DNA from: Candidatus Chromulinivoraceae bacterium
GTDB taxonomy: Bacteria > Patescibacteriota > Saccharimonadia > Saccharimonadales > Saccharimonadaceae
NCBI GenBank assembly: GCA_035478595.1
Contig: DATIJL010000001.1
Span: forward strand, 1 to 64,000
Direction of reading: 5' to 3'
DNA: 64,000 nucleotides
The position numbers were made by a program, and so were the translations under genes. This document shows positions 6,983 through 19,463 of this stretch, piece by piece. Each line of letters starts with the position of its first letter. Within the stretch, counting starts at the first letter, position 1. The notes below the pieces were generated by a model. That model saw nothing but the letters and a program-made list of their open reading frames with translations, did no database searches and was not told the origin of the DNA.

Positions 6983-8830
6983 CTAACACATGTCGGCGGC
7001 GGGTCTTGCAATGATGTTGTCTCGATGTAAACCGGCTACATTTACTACTGGTATTACGATCGGTGTTTGGCCAGTCTGCTCGAATAAATACGCAGCCGTC
7101 ATGTCCTTTAGGGCGTCTTTTAGCTGGTCAATACCTGCCCGTGACATACGTTTTGCTACAGGCAACCTACAAACCTTTTGTCGGAGACCATCCATAATCT
7201 TGGCGTTATCACGTATCGACAGATGACCGCGCGTAATAATGTCCGGGCTACTCGCCTGTCGTCCCGTCGTTCTGTCTAGCGTCACAATAACCACCACAAA
7301 ACCGTCTTCTCGAAGAAGCAGCCGGTCTTTGGTGACAATCTCGGGCACGACACTTCCCGTCTGGTCTACCAGGAGCGCACCAGCCGTCACCCGGCCAGCC
7401 TTTCTTGGCACCTTTGTCTGGTCAAACTCGGTCACGTCGCCGTTATCAACCATAATAATAGTACGCTTGGGCAGACCTTGCAGTAGACCTACGTCTTTAT
7501 GATATTTGCGGTTGAGCGCCCCGCCATAAATTGGCATGAGATAGTTCGGGCGTGTCAGTTGAATCATTTCGGCATGTTCATCTCGATTACCGTGTCCAGA
7601 TACATGAAGCGGTCCGCAACCATCTATCTCGTGCGTTGGATGACGGAATAGCTTTGCACCAAGCGTTGTTACACTATCGCCAATCCGCTGGTAGCTTTGT
7701 TCGTTACCCGGAATTGGCGTGCTGCTAATGACGACGTTGTCACCCTTTTTCAGCTTGATATATTGGTGCTCGCCAATTGCCATCCGGCTTAGCGCCGCGC
7801 CTGGTTCGCCCTGGCCGCCAGTACAGATAATCACCAACTGGTCGTCAGGTATCTGCCCGGCTTCGCGCATACTAACTAACGTGTTCTTTGGTATTTTTAA
7901 ATTGCCTAACCGCACTGCGAGCTCGGCAACCGTTGTCATACTGCGACCATCAAATGCCACTTTACGGCCAAAATGTGCCGCCGCCATTACAATCATCTGG
8001 ATACGGTTCATGTTCGACGAAAATGTCGCGGCGATAATTCGCCCATGCACTTGGTCCATTAATTCGTAAAAGCTGTCCTGCAATGTTCGTTCGGTTGGCG
8101 TCCGTCCTGGCTTGGTTGTATTAGTGCTCTCGCTCATCAAGAGCAGCACGCCTTCGTCCCCCAGCTGCTTGAGCCTGATAATATCACTTGGCATAGCGTC
8201 AAGCGGCTCGGGATCAAGCCGAAAATCACCAGTGTTGATGACTCGGCCAACTGGCGTATCAACCACGATAGCCGAGCATTCCGGAATCGCGTGGGTGACA
8301 CGGACAAGCTCAATTTTCAACTCTCCAAGGCTGACTCGTTCGTGTTTGTCCATATCGAGTGCCCTACAATTAGGCTGGAAATCGACGCCGTCTTCGTTAG
8401 CCTTTTCAAACTGGGTTTGTACCATGCCAATCGTAAACCGGCTGCCGAATATCGGAGCTGGGAACTTTGGCACGATATGGGTGAGGCCGCCAATGTGGTC
8501 TAGGTGGCCGTGACTAATAACATATCCGCGGATTTTGTGGCGAATAGATTCTAGGTATTCTGTTACCGGAATGGCATAGTTAATGCCAGGCAAATCAATC
8601 CCTAGTTCAAACCCGCAGTCCAGAATCAGTGCATCGTTTCCGTACTCTAGTACGATCATATTCTTTTCACCAATTCCCTGCTGGCCGCCCAGCGGGATAA
8701 TCCGTAGTCCGCCTGGGGTTGCCGACGCGTTAACGGTTTTGGTTGTCCGGTAAGGCCTCACAAGGCGCTCCGCTTTGTCACTTTTACGGCGCGATGCATG
8801 CGTGACATCGTATTTATTTGTTTCTTTCAT
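6983..8830 (-). CDS. rnj: Ribonuclease J, short paralogue
   Basis: This is a second RNase J-type metallo-beta-lactamase/beta-CASP nuclease (615 residues) with SHGHLDHIGG, GDFRLDPEPLD and LHVSGHGNRDEH intact, so it is probably catalytic, unlike some RnjB proteins. It lacks the long tails of the paralogue at 3016-5175. Start at ATG 8830 (MKETNKYD), which follows GGAGAAAAAACTAT; an upstream in-frame start would add 14 residues without a ribosome site. Upstream, on the same strand, is pnp, so three RNA-decay enzymes lie within 8 kb. Confidence 0.92.
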   Translation of the reverse strand: MKETNKYDVTHASRRKSDKAERLVRPYRTTKTVNASATPGGLRIIPLGGQQGIGEKNMIVLEYGNDALILDCGFELGIDLPGINYAIPVTEYLESIRHKIRGYVISHGHLDHIGGLTHIVPKFPAPIFGSRFTIGMVQTQFEKANEDGVDFQPNCRALDMDKHERVSLGELKIELVRVTHAIPECSAIVVDTPVGRVINTGDFRLDPEPLDAMPSDIIRLKQLGDEGVLLLMSESTNTTKPGRTPTERTLQDSFYELMDQVHGRIIAATFSSNMNRIQMIVMAAAHFGRKVAFDGRSMTTVAELAVRLGNLKIPKNTLVSMREAGQIPDDQLVIICTGGQGEPGAALSRMAIGEHQYIKLKKGDNVVISSTPIPGNEQSYQRIGDSVTTLGAKLFRHPTHEIDGCGPLHVSGHGNRDEHAEMIQLTRPNYLMPIYGGALNRKYHKDVGLLQGLPKRTIIMVDNGDVTEFDQTKVPRKAGRVTAGALLVDQTGSVVPEIVTKDRLLLREDGFVVVIVTLDRTTGRQASSPDIITRGHLSIRDNAKIMDGLRQKVCRLPVAKRMSRAGIDQLKDALKDMTAAYLFEQTGQTPIVIPVVNVAGLHRDNIIARPAADMC

Positions 8831-8939
8831 ATAGTTTTTTCTCCGCGGTTTTTGCGGTACCAAAACAAGCATTTTGGCGTTTAATAATAAAGATTAGCGC
8901 AAGTGTTCTTGGCCAAATGTGACAAGATTTACCATAAAT

Positions 8940-9060
8940 CTGGTCTGATTTGTTCAAGAAGGGGGGAGCCCGTAACGAGCGTCTTAGTTACTTCATTATA
9001 GCACAACAATGAAAAATAGCAATGATTAGGTGAAAGGCAGAGCTTGCCCTTCACCTACAT
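8940..9060 (-). promoter_or_regulatory. pnp/RNase J intergenic promoter region
   Basis: On the minus strand a GGTGAAGGGC/GCCTTTCACC hairpin follows pnp. TTGCTA-N16-TATAAT (TATAAT at about 8996-9001) then starts a leader of about 165 nt for the downstream RNase J gene. No known riboswitch is visible in that leader. Confidence 0.55.
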
Positions 9061-9068
9061 TACATCTG

Positions 9069-11186
9069 TTATTGAGCGTCTTTAAGACTCAAACTGAGAC
9101 GGCCACGTTCGTCGATACCGGTCAGTTTTACCTTAACCATTTGACCTTCGTGCAGGACATCGGTCACCTGCTCAACACGCTCGTTTGAAAGCTGCGAAAT
9201 ATGAACCATACCATCGATACCGGGCATAATGTTTATGAATGCTCCAAAGTCCTTGATACTAACTACTTTACCGTCGTAGATTTTGCCGACTTCTGGCTCT
9301 TCGGTCAGGCTCTTAATCCAGGCAAGAGCTTTTTCGATCTTGGTTGTGTCTGCAGCAGCAACGGTTATGAGACCGTCGTCCTTGATATCAATTTGGGCAC
9401 CGGTTTCGGCGGTAATTTTATTAATCACCTCACCACCCTTACCAATAACAGCTCCGATCTTATCTGGGTTAATTTTGATTTTCTCAATACGTGGAGCAAA
9501 CGGACTAATGGCAGTACGCGGAGTAGCTAACGTAGAGATCATGTGTTCAAGAATGAACGCACGGCCAGGCTTAGCTTTTTCGAGCGCCTGACGAAGGATA
9601 TCTACTGGCAGGCTGTGGAGTTTCATATCCATCTGCAAGGCTGTGATGCCGTTGGCTGTTCCGGTTACCTTAAAGTCCATATCACCGGCAAAATCTTCGG
9701 CGTCAGCAATATCACTGAGCACGTACGGCGTGTCGCCGTCCATCATCAGGCCCATAGCGATACCACTCACCGGTCGTTTAAGAGGTACGCCAGCATCCAT
9801 AAGTGCAAGACAGCTGCTACATGTTGCAGCCATAGAGGTAGAGCCATTCTGGCTCATGATTTCGGTCACGCTACGAATAGCGTATGGAAATTCCTCTTCG
9901 CTTGGAAGCACTGGAATAAGTGCACGTTCTGCAAGATAGCCGTGACCGATTTCACGGCGACCAGGACTACCAAGACGACGAACTTCGCCTACTGTGTAGC
10001 CGGGCGCGTTGTAATGGTGCATATAGCGACGCTCGTAGTCATTCTGCTCCATCGTATCAACCATTTGTGCATAGCTAAGTGGTGCTAAGGTAACGATGTT
10101 CATGCCTTGAGTGACACCGCGGGTAAAGAGCGATGAGCCATGTGTACGAGGCAAGATACCCACTTCGCTTGAAAGTGTGCGAATTTCGTCGAGTTTACGA
10201 CCATCAGGACGCGTACCATTCGCTACAATGCCCTTGCGGACATCTTTATGAAGAGCCATTGTAAAGGCTTCGTCGTATTCACCGCGAAGTGCCTGGTATT
10301 CGTCTTCACCAACTTTTTTGACCATGTCGTCATGGAACTGAGTGCGAAGCACTGAAATCATTTCGTTGCGTTCTGGGTATGGACGCTGGAGATCTTCACC
10401 AATCTTGCCTTCCATCCACTCGTCAACAACAGTCTGGATGGCGTCGTTTGGAAGCACGAGCTCATAGGTAAGTGGTTCAACTCCGACTTTTTCGATCAAC
10501 TGACGCTGCAACGCGATTGCCGGCTGAAGTTTTTCGTGCGCCCAAGCGATTGCGTCTGTAACAACATCCTCACCTACTTCATTTGCGCCAGCCTCAACCA
10601 TCGTAACGCCTTTTTCGATACCAGCAACCACAAGGTCAAGATCGCTTGCTTCGCGCTCATCACTCGTGGCAAATGCCTTGAACTCGCCATTTACGCGAGC
10701 AACACGCAGGCCAGCTACAGGACCATCAAATGGCGCACCCGTAAGCATAAGAGCTGTGGAAGCGGCGATCATCGCAATAGAATCAGGGCGGAATGCCGGA
10801 TCCATAGAGAGAACACTTGCAACCACTTGGACTTCTTGGCGATACCCTTTTGGAAACAATGGACGAATCGGACGGTCAATTAAACGGCCAATAAGAATGG
10901 CTTCGTCGCTTGGACGGCCCTCACGCTTGATGAAACGGCTGCCACTGATTTTTCCGGCTGCATAAAATTTTTCTTCATAGTCCACGCTCAGTGGGAAGTA
11001 GTCCATGCCGCTAATGGGATTCTTGCCCACCATAGCCGTACCAAGTACAACAGTATCGCCATACTTTACTAGGACACTAGCAGATGTACGAAAACCGACA
11101 CGGTTGACCTCTAGTGTAAGTGGCTGACCGCAGAGATCAGTGGTAACAGAGATAATCTCTTTACCGTTAGGGTTGATAGTAGACAT
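9069..11186 (-). CDS. pnp: Polynucleotide phosphorylase
   Basis: This phosphorolytic 3'-5' exoribonuclease has 705 residues, the normal length. It carries two RNase PH-like domains (about 1-230 and 310-540), a KH domain with IGAVIGKGGEVI (~560-615), and a C-terminal S1 domain with VGKIYDGKVVSIKDFGAFI (~620-700). The start ATG follows GGAGGACATTC. The minus-strand -10 TATAAT at 11311-11316 gives a leader of about 115 nt, a place where pnp autoregulation acts in other bacteria. The leader sequence itself shows no match I recognise. Confidence 0.95.
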   Translation of the reverse strand: MSTINPNGKEIISVTTDLCGQPLTLEVNRVGFRTSASVLVKYGDTVVLGTAMVGKNPISGMDYFPLSVDYEEKFYAAGKISGSRFIKREGRPSDEAILIGRLIDRPIRPLFPKGYRQEVQVVASVLSMDPAFRPDSIAMIAASTALMLTGAPFDGPVAGLRVARVNGEFKAFATSDEREASDLDLVVAGIEKGVTMVEAGANEVGEDVVTDAIAWAHEKLQPAIALQRQLIEKVGVEPLTYELVLPNDAIQTVVDEWMEGKIGEDLQRPYPERNEMISVLRTQFHDDMVKKVGEDEYQALRGEYDEAFTMALHKDVRKGIVANGTRPDGRKLDEIRTLSSEVGILPRTHGSSLFTRGVTQGMNIVTLAPLSYAQMVDTMEQNDYERRYMHHYNAPGYTVGEVRRLGSPGRREIGHGYLAERALIPVLPSEEEFPYAIRSVTEIMSQNGSTSMAATCSSCLALMDAGVPLKRPVSGIAMGLMMDGDTPYVLSDIADAEDFAGDMDFKVTGTANGITALQMDMKLHSLPVDILRQALEKAKPGRAFILEHMISTLATPRTAISPFAPRIEKIKINPDKIGAVIGKGGEVINKITAETGAQIDIKDDGLITVAAADTTKIEKALAWIKSLTEEPEVGKIYDGKVVSIKDFGAFINIMPGIDGMVHISQLSNERVEQVTDVLHEGQMVKVKLTGIDERGRLSLSLKDAQ

Positions 11187-11341
11187 GAATGTCCTCCTTT
11201 TTTAACTCGCCTATTAAAAGATAACGGCGAATAAGTAACGGGTGTGGCATTTCTTTGTTCAAAAAATATCGCATCCACCACTTACGTAACCGCTGCAGCG
11301 AGCTACCTCTATTATAGACTATCTGACCGAATGAATACAGG

Positions 11342-11347
11342 TATAAT
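11342..11347 (+). promoter_or_regulatory. -10 element of the whiB gene
   Basis: TATAAT lies 31 bases before the GTG start. The -35 position (11319-11324, CTATCT) is poor, so the promoter may need an activator or have low basal activity. The pnp -10 is on the other strand at 11311-11316. Confidence 0.55.
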
Positions 11348-11378
11348 AAAATGGTACACACCTAAGGAGGAGATGACC

Positions 11379-11639
11379 GTGGACTGGCGCAAGCGCGCCG
11401 TCTGTCGGGATGAGGACCCTGAGCTTTTCTTTCCAATCGGCAAGAAAGGGCCCGCCGCCAAACAGACGGAAGAAGCCAAAGCAATTTGCCGTCGGTGTCC
11501 CGTCAGCGACCAATGTCTCGAGTGGGCACTCACAAGCGGCGAAGATACGGGTGTCTGGGGAGGACTGAGCGAAGACGAACGACGAGCATTGAAAAGCCGA
11601 AGAGCTAAGGCAAAGCGTCGCCAGAAGCCCCGTTCCTAA
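11379..11639 (+). CDS. whiB: WhiB1-type iron-sulfur transcription regulator
   Basis: WhiB-like proteins carry a 4Fe-4S cluster, bind region 4 of the primary sigma factor, and respond to NO/O2. They are typical of Actinobacteria and their phages. The 86-residue product has the four cluster cysteines at C9, C37, C40 and C46 (CRRCPVSDQC), DEDPELFFPIG near the N-terminus, the sigma-contact turn GVWGG with W60, and a basic DNA-binding C-terminus (KSRRAKAKRRQKPR). From memory, spacing and wording follow mycobacterial WhiB1 almost residue for residue. I chose GTG 11379, eight bases after AAGGAGG, because it gives MDWR at the N-terminus as in WhiB1; an ATG at 11373 is too close to the ribosome site. 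Codons are GC-rich, unlike the neighbours. It stands alone. Confidence 0.93.
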   Translation: MDWRKRAVCRDEDPELFFPIGKKGPAAKQTEEAKAICRRCPVSDQCLEWALTSGEDTGVWGGLSEDERRALKSRRAKAKRRQKPRS

Positions 11640-11681: not shown

Positions 11682-12161
11682 CTAAGCCAATGTCTCGATA
11701 ATATTTGTCAGACGTTTGCGTAGTCGATTAATACGCTCCTGCGGATCAATTTGTTCTCGAATTTGCGCACGTGAAAGCACGGCTGCACTCGTTTTGCCTC
11801 GAACATGCAAACTACATCGCAAATCTTCGCAACATAAAAATGATACTGAACGGATTGGTGAGGTCTGAAACGTAATAACTGCCGAGTGAGTCCCTCGCTG
11901 CCATGTGGCACAGATATCACAGATGATCGCCTCAACCCTCCCCCGACTACCCGGCGTTCGCTTGCTTAGGCCATATGGTACGACGATGTCTAAAAACGGT
12001 ATGATCAATACTCCTTCGTTACCCTGTTTATTGGCAACGCCCAAGAAATCACGATCTTCCCATTCGGTGATTTCCTCGGGGATGAACCGAAGTTCACGCT
12101 TTAATCGTGGTTTTAGCGGCCTTACAAGCTGGGTAAATTGTTCACGAGTGATCACATTCAT
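11682..12161 (-). CDS. FBP-domain (FusB/FusC-like) EF-G-binding protein
   Basis: The 159-residue protein matches the FBP family, named after FusB, which binds EF-G through a treble-clef zinc finger and helps release it from the ribosome. Likely ligands are C81 and C84 (CDIC), C110 or C111, and C116, in a context (DLRCSLHVRGK) typical of the family. A WEDRDFLG segment lies in the N-terminal half. Its ATG overlaps the TGA-side end of the GreA-like gene by four bases, so the two are translationally coupled and probably transcribed from the leader at 12661-12725. A role in elongation or ribosome stress is inferred from the family and the partner. Confidence 0.78.
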   Translation of the reverse strand: MNVITREQFTQLVRPLKPRLKRELRFIPEEITEWEDRDFLGVANKQGNEGVLIIPFLDIVVPYGLSKRTPGSRGRVEAIICDICATWQRGTHSAVITFQTSPIRSVSFLCCEDLRCSLHVRGKTSAAVLSRAQIREQIDPQERINRLRKRLTNIIETLA

Positions 12162-12619
12162 AGATACAGTATAGCCCTTATACAGCTCGCATCGCGACCA
12201 AGGATAACTTTGTCACCTACTTTTTTCCCTCTTAGTATAATTGCAAGCGGCGCTTGGGCACTCATTACTACCGCACCCTCCCGAGACTGACCAGCACGAA
12301 GCGTCCAGTCGCCGGCAATAAAGTACGTCTTGCCGTTTTCCAGCTTGACCGTTGAGCCAATCCCTACCATTTCTTTTTTAATTGGTGGAATACTAGGCAA
12401 ACTGTCGCGTATAACCTGGCGAAGCTTCTGTAGCTCAGCATCTAGCAGTGACTGTCGGTCACGAAGTGCATCAAACGGCGCATTATCATGCCAGGTTTCA
12501 GAGGACTGGTTAAATACCTCGTAGAACTCTGGTCCCAAACTGAGAATTTCCGCTTCAAGTTCGGCAATTCGCTGACGAGCAGCTTTTTTATCTTCATCAA
12601 GTATGATGAGCTCTTTCAT
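12158..12619 (-). CDS. greA: GreA/GreB-like transcript cleavage factor
   Basis: Gre factors insert a coiled coil in the RNA polymerase secondary channel and trigger cleavage of backtracked RNA. The 153-residue product has an N-terminal coiled coil (about 1-75) with the tip segment WHDNAPFDALRDRQ. A FKBP-like C-terminal domain follows (GIGSTVKLENGKTYF to RGKKVGDKVIL). Divergence from canonical GreA is considerable, so it could be a Gre-fold regulator rather than the main GreA. SD AAGGAG stands before ATG 12619. It is the first gene of an operon with the FBP protein, behind a structured leader shared with the divergent Nudix gene. Confidence 0.75.
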   Translation of the reverse strand: MKELIILDEDKKAARQRIAELEAEILSLGPEFYEVFNQSSETWHDNAPFDALRDRQSLLDAELQKLRQVIRDSLPSIPPIKKEMVGIGSTVKLENGKTYFIAGDWTLRAGQSREGAVVMSAQAPLAIILRGKKVGDKVILGRDASCIRAILYL

Positions 12620-12660
12620 AAGAAAGCTCCTTAAAAATTAATTTACAAGAATCGTCAGCG

Positions 12661-12748
12661 GTTCGGCTCGTCCGAACATGCACGAATAGAGGATCCCTGC
12701 TGGATCATAGTAATTATCAAGTATAGCAAATATACAGGCCACCACCAA
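12661..12748 (-). promoter_or_regulatory. Promoter and two-hairpin leader of the greA-like operon
   Basis: On the minus strand TTGGTG (12743-12748), N17 and TATACT (12720-12725) start a transcript. Its leader folds into hairpin 1 (GATCC-AGCAG-GGATC, 12692-12706) and, after 13-14 nt, hairpin 2 (GTTCGG-ACGAG-CCGAAC, 12661-12677). About 30 nt follow to AAGGAG. The same arrangement occurs on the other strand at 12756-12817. Confidence 0.7.
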
Positions 12749-12752
12749 CCCA

Positions 12753-12817
12753 TGCTATAATCGTAACAATACGATCCTATGGGATCCACTATGCGTCTAC
12801 GTTCGGACGAGCCGAAC
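12753..12817 (+). promoter_or_regulatory. Promoter and two-hairpin leader of the divergent Nudix gene
   Basis: An extended -10 (TGCTATAAT, 12753-12761) starts a transcript. Hairpin 1 is GATCC-TATG-GGATC (12773-12786) and hairpin 2 is GTTCGG-ACGAG-CCGAAC (12801-12817). The ribosome site CAAGGAG follows about 27 nt later. Hairpin 2 is identical in sequence to that of the minus-strand leader. Confidence 0.7.
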
Positions 12818-12856
12818 CTCTAACGGTCAAATTTACTTTAATCAAGGAGAGCTTGT

Positions 12857-13312
12857 ATGCAAGAACGACGAATTGCCGTACGAGGCATTATATACAAAGA
12901 TGGAAAACTACTCAGCCAACGCTTAAAAGCGTATCGACGTAATGATCGCGACTTTTGGTGTACTCCAGGTGGTGGTCTAGATATTGGTGAATCGATTGAG
13001 GATGGCCTACGCCGTGAAATGATTGAAGAAACTGGTATTGACCCTAAAATTGGTCGCTTGCTTTTTGTTCAACAATTTTCTGAGGATGGCAAAAAGGAAC
13101 AGATGGAATTCTTTTTTCTGATTGAAAATCCGGAAGATTACGAAACGATTGACCTTACGACAACCACGCACGGCGAACTGGAAATCGAACATGTCGAGTT
13201 TATCGACCCGAAATCAGAGGTTATACTCCCTGCTTTCCTTCAAGAAATCGATCTCCAAAAATACATCGAGAACGTCCAGCCAGTTACCGTTTATAACGAA
13301 ATAACGAACTAA
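12857..13312 (+). CDS. Nudix hydrolase
   Basis: The 151-residue protein has a full Nudix box (GGGLDIGESIEDGLRREM then IEETGI), in the order GX5EX7REUXEEXGU. The N-terminus is short, and the protein is close in size to ADP-ribose or nucleotide-cleaning MutT-type enzymes; the substrate is unknown. The ATG follows CAAGGAGAGCTTGT. It is divergent from the greA-like/FBP operon and shares its two-hairpin leader, which suggests joint control. Confidence 0.87.
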   Translation: MQERRIAVRGIIYKDGKLLSQRLKAYRRNDRDFWCTPGGGLDIGESIEDGLRREMIEETGIDPKIGRLLFVQQFSEDGKKEQMEFFFLIENPEDYETIDLTTTTHGELEIEHVEFIDPKSEVILPAFLQEIDLQKYIENVQPVTVYNEITN

Positions 13313-17853: not shown

Positions 17854-19463
17854 GTAACTGCTCACTGCCCCAACTGCGCCAACGCCTTGAAATAGCCTTG
17901 GGGTGCTGTGCGCCACGTAGTGGTGCACAGCGAAAGGACGGTGGCTAGTGCTTGCGCTCCTCGCTCAGACTTAGAGCCAAAGCTCCGCTTTCGCTTTAGT
18001 ACCAGCTGTCGTAAATCCCGTTCAGTTCGGTTGTTGTCACACGGTGTATCTTTTAGGAGACAGACGAATAGTCTGTCTTTCCCAGCTCTTTTGAGCTGGG
18101 CTTTCAGCCTCGTGAGTTTCTGTGGTTCACCAGCTCCCTCCGGTGCTGGTTGGTTGGCCAGTCGCTGTACTCGCTGCCAGAGTGTTTCGGCTTGCTGTTC
18201 TCGTACGACTTCGTCGTACGGTTCGTTGAGATACGTTCGTAGGTCTTGGTAGATACCAGCGAAGCTGGCATACCACAGCTCAACATACGGAAGCTGTTCT
18301 TCCGGAAGATGGGCATTGTAGCGGAGATCACGAATAGTCCTGTAGAGATGTGCCCAGCAGAGCTGCTGAGTCCCGGGGAGTGACTCGCTGCGGTACGCAG
18401 CGTAGTCGTCCGTAATACGGACGCCAGCAAAGGGCTGGTCGCTGTCCTCTCCGAATAGTGTGTGAGCATACGTCGCTCCGCGACTTTGCTCCAGGGCAAA
18501 GTAGACCTTTGCGCTCGTCCCGTCACAGAGATTCCATGCATAGCCATGACCCTGCTGGTCTTGGATTGGCCAGGGTGTTTCGTCGGCATGCACCACTGGT
18601 GCGGCTCGGATGTCGCTCTTCAGCTGAGTGTACGCCGGTAGCCAGGTTTGGTGTTGTTTCTGGAGGATATGAGCAATCTCACCGTCGGTGACGGTGAGAT
18701 TGTAGAGCGAAAGGAGCAGGCCGGTTGTTTGAGCGTAGCTCAACCCAACCACCGAAATGAGATGACAGACCAGAAGACGAGTATTGGAGCCAAGCGTCAC
18801 CGCCTGACCGCTGAGATCTTTATTCCCTCCGGTTGCGGCTCTGCCGCAGGCGAGGCATTCGCCTCGCTCAATGAGATACTTTGTCACTAACTGTGGTTGG
18901 TAGTCACGGGTCAGCTCGGGGAGCGGGATATCCTCTTCGTAGCGTTCGTGGATGGTCGTCTTGTTTGGATTGAAATGACCACCACAAGCGCAGGTGGCAG
19001 GAAGTGGCAGTGCCACTTCCTGCGTTACAGCGCTTGCTGGCGGCAATGGCCGCCGGTAGGAATCCTTGCTGCGAGGCTGCTTCGGTAGCGCAAAGAGAGT
19101 GGGAGTTACAGCGGGCGTTCCGCCCGCTGGTGGCCGTTTCTTCTTGCCGAAGACCATGGTTTGGAGTTCGGCTATTTGGATAGCCTGAGCGTCAATCTTC
19201 TCGAGGGCTTGAGCAAGCAGCTGACGCAGCTCAACATTCTCCGCTCGGATTACTTTGTTCTCAGCTTTGAGCTCAGCGATCTGACGCCGGTCACGAACAT
19301 GCAGCTTCCGCAGGTTGCGGAGCTCTACCATGCGCGAAGCGATAACGTCATCTGTGAGTTTTCGAGACATACGTGTGTTACAAGCTTTGTTTGTTTTTTA
19401 GTTCGTCCTAAACTAAAGTTTAGTCCGAACTGCCCTGAGGGGCAAGGGGGTGTGAGCAGTTAC
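17854..19463 (-). mobile_element. IS66-family insertion sequence, single-gene type
   Basis: The 1610-bp element is bounded by inverted repeats GTAACTGCTCAC (17854-17865) and GTGAGCAGTTAC (19452-19463) and an 8-bp direct target duplication. It has one gene, tnpC-like; tnpA and tnpB are absent, as in the ISBst12-type subgroup. Perfect duplication and an intact transposase indicate recent insertion. It landed just upstream of the promoter of the GC-rich gene at 19550. Confidence 0.92.
17862..19370 (-). CDS. tnpC: IS66 family transposase (TnpC-like)
   Basis: The 502-residue transposase has an N-terminal coiled coil with a leucine-zipper-like region (about 1-75), a linker, a zinc-binding segment (CACGGHFNP ... 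CLACG), and the catalytic core with VVHADETPW and ITDDYAAYRS. Near the C-terminus the IS66 segment CDNNRTERDLRQLVLKRK is present. The stop codon lies inside the left inverted repeat. Its length is full for the family, so it is probably active. Confidence 0.95.
   Translation of the reverse strand: MSRKLTDDVIASRMVELRNLRKLHVRDRRQIAELKAENKVIRAENVELRQLLAQALEKIDAQAIQIAELQTMVFGKKKRPPAGGTPAVTPTLFALPKQPRSKDSYRRPLPPASAVTQEVALPLPATCACGGHFNPNKTTIHERYEEDIPLPELTRDYQPQLVTKYLIERGECLACGRAATGGNKDLSGQAVTLGSNTRLLVCHLISVVGLSYAQTTGLLLSLYNLTVTDGEIAHILQKQHQTWLPAYTQLKSDIRAAPVVHADETPWPIQDQQGHGYAWNLCDGTSAKVYFALEQSRGATYAHTLFGEDSDQPFAGVRITDDYAAYRSESLPGTQQLCWAHLYRTIRDLRYNAHLPEEQLPYVELWYASFAGIYQDLRTYLNEPYDEVVREQQAETLWQRVQRLANQPAPEGAGEPQKLTRLKAQLKRAGKDRLFVCLLKDTPCDNNRTERDLRQLVLKRKRSFGSKSERGAQALATVLSLCTTTWRTAPQGYFKALAQLGQ

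Follow-up and report, generated by a model that had tools for sequence, protein, structure and literature searches.

Divergent Nudix and GreA-like leaders in a Saccharimonadia genome match the MDR-NUDIX RNA, a probable 5′-terminal cis-regulatory element

The window, by which we mean the whole 64,000-nucleotide stretch of DNA analysed here, contains two divergent transcription units, one encoding a Nudix hydrolase and the other a GreA-like protein together with an FBP protein (Table 1). Between them lies a 56-bp spacer holding two divergent promoters, and each side of this spacer is flanked by one copy, A or B, of the same leader element. The Nudix hydrolase belongs to a set of 25 Nudix-domain matches, seemingly many for a 1.14-Mb genome, and its gene is the sole one among them preceded by the element; the protein gave only weak matches to named Nudix subfamilies and to solved MutT/Nudix structures. 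Likewise, the genome has three GreA/GreB matches, and the motif precedes only the divergent GreA-like gene of the window. Its product scores far under the GreA cut-offs, and the anti-cleavage factor Gfh1 gave the best PDB match, a weak one (E 0.008). Regarding the wider neighbourhood, a WhiB-family transcription factor gene (11244-11639 (+), PF02467, 98 bits), from a family typical of Actinobacteria, is convergent with the FBP gene; it lies near the element in this genome alone among the loci examined and was rejected as a conserved partner of the motif. Adjoining RNase J and PNPase genes are also found near the element (6983-11186 (-)), and an IS66-type transposase gene (PF03050) is located at 17862-19370 (-).

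Table 1. Genes, promoter elements and leader RNAs of the divergent locus (window coordinates).
Feature	Position	Strand	Details
FBP (EF-G-binding/FusB-type C-terminal domain) gene	11682..12161	-	PF16571, 54.8 bits; overlaps end of GreA-like gene
GreA-like protein gene, divergent	12158..12619	-	153 aa; PF01272, 28.2 bits
Shine-Dalgarno AAGGAG, GreA-like gene	12627..12632	-	
MDR-NUDIX RNA (RF02918), copy A	12652..12711	-	leader of GreA-like + FBP transcript; P1 GATCC-AGCAG-GGATC; P2 TCGT/ACGA; P3 GTTCGG-ACGAG-CCGAAC
-10 box TATACT, GreA-like promoter	12720..12725	-	extended TG; motif base 1 follows after 8 nt
-10 box TATAAT, Nudix promoter	12756..12761	+	extended TG at 12753-12754; motif base 1 follows after 6 nt
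MDR-NUDIX RNA (RF02918), copy B	12768..12826	+	leader of Nudix transcript; P1 GATCC-TATG-GGATC; P2 down to 3 pairs; P3 as in copy A
Shine-Dalgarno AAGGAG, Nudix gene	12844..12849	+	
Nudix hydrolase gene	12857..13312	+	151 aa; PF00293, 56.2 bits

The window contains exactly two instances of the second leader hairpin, GTTCGGACGAGCCGAAC, located at 12661-12677 (-) and 12801-12817 (+); 0.06 matches with up to three mismatches are expected by chance, and 1 of 100 shuffles reached two. A first hairpin, GATCC-N5-GGATC on the minus strand and GATCC-N4-GGATC on the plus strand, is placed 14 nt upstream of it, and on both strands the Shine-Dalgarno (SD) sequence AAGGAG follows about 27–30 nt past hairpin 2. 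A sequence-only reading of this DNA had proposed just such a double-hairpin leader on both strands, with an identical hairpin 2 and an AAGGAG some 30 nt further on, and these features proved real. Its two-hairpin description captured P1 and P3 and overlooked the outer helix P2, which wraps hairpin 2 with four pairs on the minus strand and three of these four on the plus strand. The proposed likeness along the leader did not hold up: copies A and B resemble each other in the motif (46 of 60 columns) and the -10 region, whereas their linkers, with 18 identical positions, are no more alike than shuffled ones (mean 15.6, 95% point 19).

Using Infernal, we found that both leaders match the Rfam family RF02918 (MDR-NUDIX, type Cis-reg) end to end, over its full 59 positions. 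With a gathering score of 54.9 bits, cmscan returned 74.0 bits for copy A and 63.1 bits for copy B; a refined model, R1, gave 77.5 and 66.5 bits, respectively. These matches identify copies A and B as MDR-NUDIX cis-regulatory RNA and rule out a new RNA class; the class is already catalogued, and we do not claim its first description. MDR-NUDIX was reportedly described from TM7 originally, with MDR-transporter and Nudix genes. In the literature searched, which did not extend to the original RF02918 description, the motif's name and accession were absent, and the literature found reported no ligand, binding protein or regulation for it. The same search, again with the RF02918 discovery description outside it, returned no description of the GreA-like targets, the single Nudix ortholog, the coupling to the start site or the P1-less variant presented below, for which we claim no priority.

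Folding energy did not distinguish the two leaders from shuffled sequences (z 0.40 and -0.15); thermodynamic stability alone is thus unremarkable, and the evidence for RNA structure is covariation. This was assessed in 44 distinct copies, which had themselves been found with a structure-aware model, aligned by sequence with MAFFT and hence not fitted to the structure. Standard pairs made up 97.0% of the pair cells as compared to 82.7% in shuffles, 12 of the 15 base pairs in P1, P2 and P3 showed changes on both sides, and double-change cells numbered 91 versus 24.8. None of 500 shuffles was as high on any measure, and the signal collapsed on sliding. The compensatory changes that the earlier reading had suggested looking for in hairpins 1 and 2 are therefore present, spread over all three helices. 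Conservation also extends to unpaired letters, namely the 5′ ACUAU, C(N)CUA after P1, A36, the ACG in the P3 loop, and a C and a U after P3. The P1 arms and the loops, by contrast, are free to vary while the flanking bases are not, the spacing of the P1 arms ranging from about 2 to about 26 nt. A pairing of the P3 ACGAG loop with the CUCG before P2, judged by eye, was discarded, as one side is missing in many copies.

The distance between promoter and motif is nearly constant. Of 96 copies, 74 have their best -10 hexamer ending 6-7 nt upstream of motif base 1 and 78 have it at 5-8 nt, with the extended TG in 32 of these 78; the first motif base is an A in nearly all copies. In Nudix orthologs that lack the motif, the -10 box precedes the start codon by 6-7 nt in 9 of 13 cases, and none of these nine has an SD at the expected place. 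Nine motif-less Nudix messages accordingly look leaderless (loci L198, L200, L201, L204, L207, L209, L210, L217 and L220). Because the -10 spacing is fixed and recurs as the spacing to the start codon in motif-less orthologs, transcription can be taken to start at motif base 1, which very likely makes the RNA the 5′ end of the message, with the start falling on this base or within 1-2 nt of it. The simplest reading would be that motif, linker and SD together stand in for a leaderless start.

We found no sign of a riboswitch-type expression platform, either terminator or SD sequestration, in 96 leaders. The linker to the start codon has a median length of 41 nt for ABC, 34 nt for Nudix and 40 nt for GreA-like genes, and is G-poor (7.6% G vs 20% upstream). 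U-runs of at least six occur in only 5 of 96 linkers; a conserved terminator was not seen, and an intrinsic terminator in the linker was rejected. Similarly, pairing between the SD region and the motif, in a model that leaves pseudoknots aside, reached 0.172 in native and 0.173 in swapped leaders, which speaks against evolved pairing and led us to reject SD sequestration. Given that neither platform was seen, an effect on message stability or on ribosome access at the 5′ end appears likelier than a terminator or anti-SD switch.

The motif is by no means confined to this genome; confinement would have undermined the earlier reading. Class and family samples of Saccharimonadia yielded 97 copies, each lying in sense in the leader of an ABC exporter (58), Nudix (31) or GreA-like gene (8); the Nudix count comprises 30 loci plus a weak motif match (G427:C9) whose Nudix ortholog was identified by protein search. 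In a sample of the phylum, all eight carriers fell into one order, and the named records recovered with an exact-pattern search were Saccharibacteria or metagenome bins labelled only 'bacterium'. The exact pattern had no match in viral contigs, and viral spread was rejected on this ground. Most genomes lack the motif, 54 of 392 carrying it in the class sample, and 60 of 76 carrier genomes have a single copy. In the present genome, a third copy (contig C18, 49210-49276) scored 53.3 bits, just below the gathering score; it precedes an ABC exporter gene with a second exporter gene closely behind. The refined model, built from 44 copies, recovered the same three copies and none further. The genome thus has the motif on one gene or operon of each type, out of five ABC exporter membrane domains, 25 Nudix and three GreA/GreB matches. 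The largest target class, the ABC exporters, is not visible from the window alone.

The three target classes differ in how narrowly they are defined. When 30 motif-linked Nudix proteins were compared with 20 paralogs of this genome, the window Nudix was the best match for all 30, with 106-224 bits (self excluded) as opposed to at most 54 bits for other paralogs, and protein similarity thus places the motif-linked enzymes in one orthologous Nudix subfamily. Unlike these, the motif-linked exporters form several divergent groups. As a side observation, trhO (tRNA U34 hydroxylase, NF001133) is divergent from the motif at 35 of the 58 ABC loci and at four GreA-like loci (e.g. L057), its start codon often being about 30 nt upstream of motif base 1. 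For the transcripts in the window, the sequence-only reading had named GreA-like, FBP and Nudix products; FBP does not stand as a conserved or core target, its gene following only 2 of the 8 motif-linked GreA-like genes. Close GreA-like relatives (E below 1e-25) are encoded in 16 genomes, eight of which have copies found with the Rfam model and five remnants found with the refined model, four of them without P1 and one with P1 only; at the close relatives in G141, G206 and G427, neither motif nor remnant was seen. The P1-less variant, keeping P2 and P3, precedes the GreA-like gene in G080, G124, G324, G435 and G251, and the P1-only remnant is that of G346. The short P1-less variant lies directly after the promoter of GreA-like genes at loci L172, L173, L176, L177 and L069.

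The earlier suggestion of a cis-regulatory RNA common to both divergent transcripts is supported by the Rfam type, the covariation, the invariable sense-leader position and the fixed promoter distance. Considering these features together, we regard it as reasonably probable that MDR-NUDIX controls a small detoxification/stress regulon as a 5′-terminal cis-regulatory RNA that senses a ligand or a protein. The message would begin at or near motif base 1, so that the RNA folds as its 5′ end. Through conserved unpaired bases (5′ ACUAU, CNCUA after P1, the P3 ACG-N-R loop, and the C and U after P3), this folded end may bind a small toxic metabolite, a nucleotide or a regulatory protein, and binding would alter expression of the exporter, the Nudix enzyme and the GreA/Gfh1-like RNA-polymerase factor, with output through message stability or decay or through ribosome loading at the 5′ end. 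The target genes are probably switched under stress. That the element serves a transcription/translation stress response, as the sequence-only reading had it, is a guess, and coordination as a general rule is weakened by the single copy of most carriers.

What the RNA binds separates two narrower versions. It could tentatively be a strict small-molecule riboswitch, in which the RNA alone binds a ligand such as a nucleotide, or some toxic compound removed by the exporter and cleaved by the Nudix enzyme: the mixture of exporters and hydrolases recalls the guanidine and ykkC-2c riboswitches (PMC7266159), and unpaired bases are strongly conserved, whereas the element is small, a conserved expression platform was not found, and the persistence of the P1-less variant before GreA-like genes makes P1 dispensable there. 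A site for a trans-acting regulatory protein that alters translation or decay, which we consider somewhat unlikely, needs no such platform; the compact pair of hairpins, with a similar C-N-C/A-U stretch behind each, and the isolated P2/P3 variant, still located at the 5′ end, resemble protein-recognition units, yet a candidate protein has not emerged. It is unlikely that the element senses nothing and merely stabilises the 5′ end or enhances translation constitutively. A G-poor linker, a good SD and the placement of hairpins at the very 5′ end would suit this role, and as motif-less orthologs seem leaderless, the leader might do no more than supply a strong ribosome site; the conservation of single-stranded bases and exact loop letters, however, goes beyond what hairpin protection needs, the freedom to vary seen in the P1 arms and loops does not extend to their flanks, and the element is confined to three gene families. 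Finally, the fixed position relative to the -10 box and the inverted repeats common to divergent promoters could suggest that a repressor binds double-stranded DNA, the element being its operator at both start sites. The variable P1-arm distance, the RNA-like nesting of P2 around P3 with asymmetric junctions, and the identical orientation of every copy relative to its gene render an operator highly improbable.

Going beyond the 5′-terminal regulatory RNA that we favour, one can conceive of a sensor RNA with which the message literally begins. Acquiring or losing it would switch genes between a leaderless and a leadered, regulated state; it would act via decay, 5′-phosphate state or ribosome loading, and would unite one Nudix enzyme and the Gfh1/GreA-like factor in a single stress response of episymbiotic bacteria. 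Taken as a whole, we would call this distinctly improbable.

As an RNA class, MDR-NUDIX is an orphan, and few genetic tools exist for the host-dependent bacteria that carry it. Here, the set of targets is reduced to several ABC exporters, a single Nudix ortholog and a GreA-like factor, and the element is placed at the predicted first base of the message, so that the search for what it senses can start from defined constructs and substrates. According to a review of Patescibacteria genetics, inducible expression has yet to be developed, and riboswitches are put forward there as candidates (PMC11665869). MDR-NUDIX itself might serve as such a native control element.

With regard to known systems, ANTAR proteins bind two-hairpin RNA, and their target RNAs share with MDR-NUDIX two adjacent small hairpins in a 5′ leader. 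In MDR-NUDIX, however, the P1 loop varies in sequence and length, the P3 loop is a 4-5 nt ACG-N-R, and a third, enclosing helix is present; a search for ANTAR gave zero matches in this genome, but likewise zero in control genomes. Multidrug efflux pumps are under the control of guanidine riboswitches and NUDIX/HAD hydrolases under that of ykkC subtype 2c (nucleoside diphosphate), so that here, too, a shared leader element stands over NUDIX hydrolases or multidrug efflux pumps (PMC7266159). The MDR-NUDIX leaders differ in showing no Rfam match to the ykkC families and neither a terminator nor an SD switch. The closest relation is to RF02918 itself, to which the leaders correspond in sequence and structure over all 59 positions above the curated threshold and in preceding transporter and Nudix genes, whereas copies in the window and its relatives also precede GreA-like genes (8 of 97, with remnants before five more relatives).
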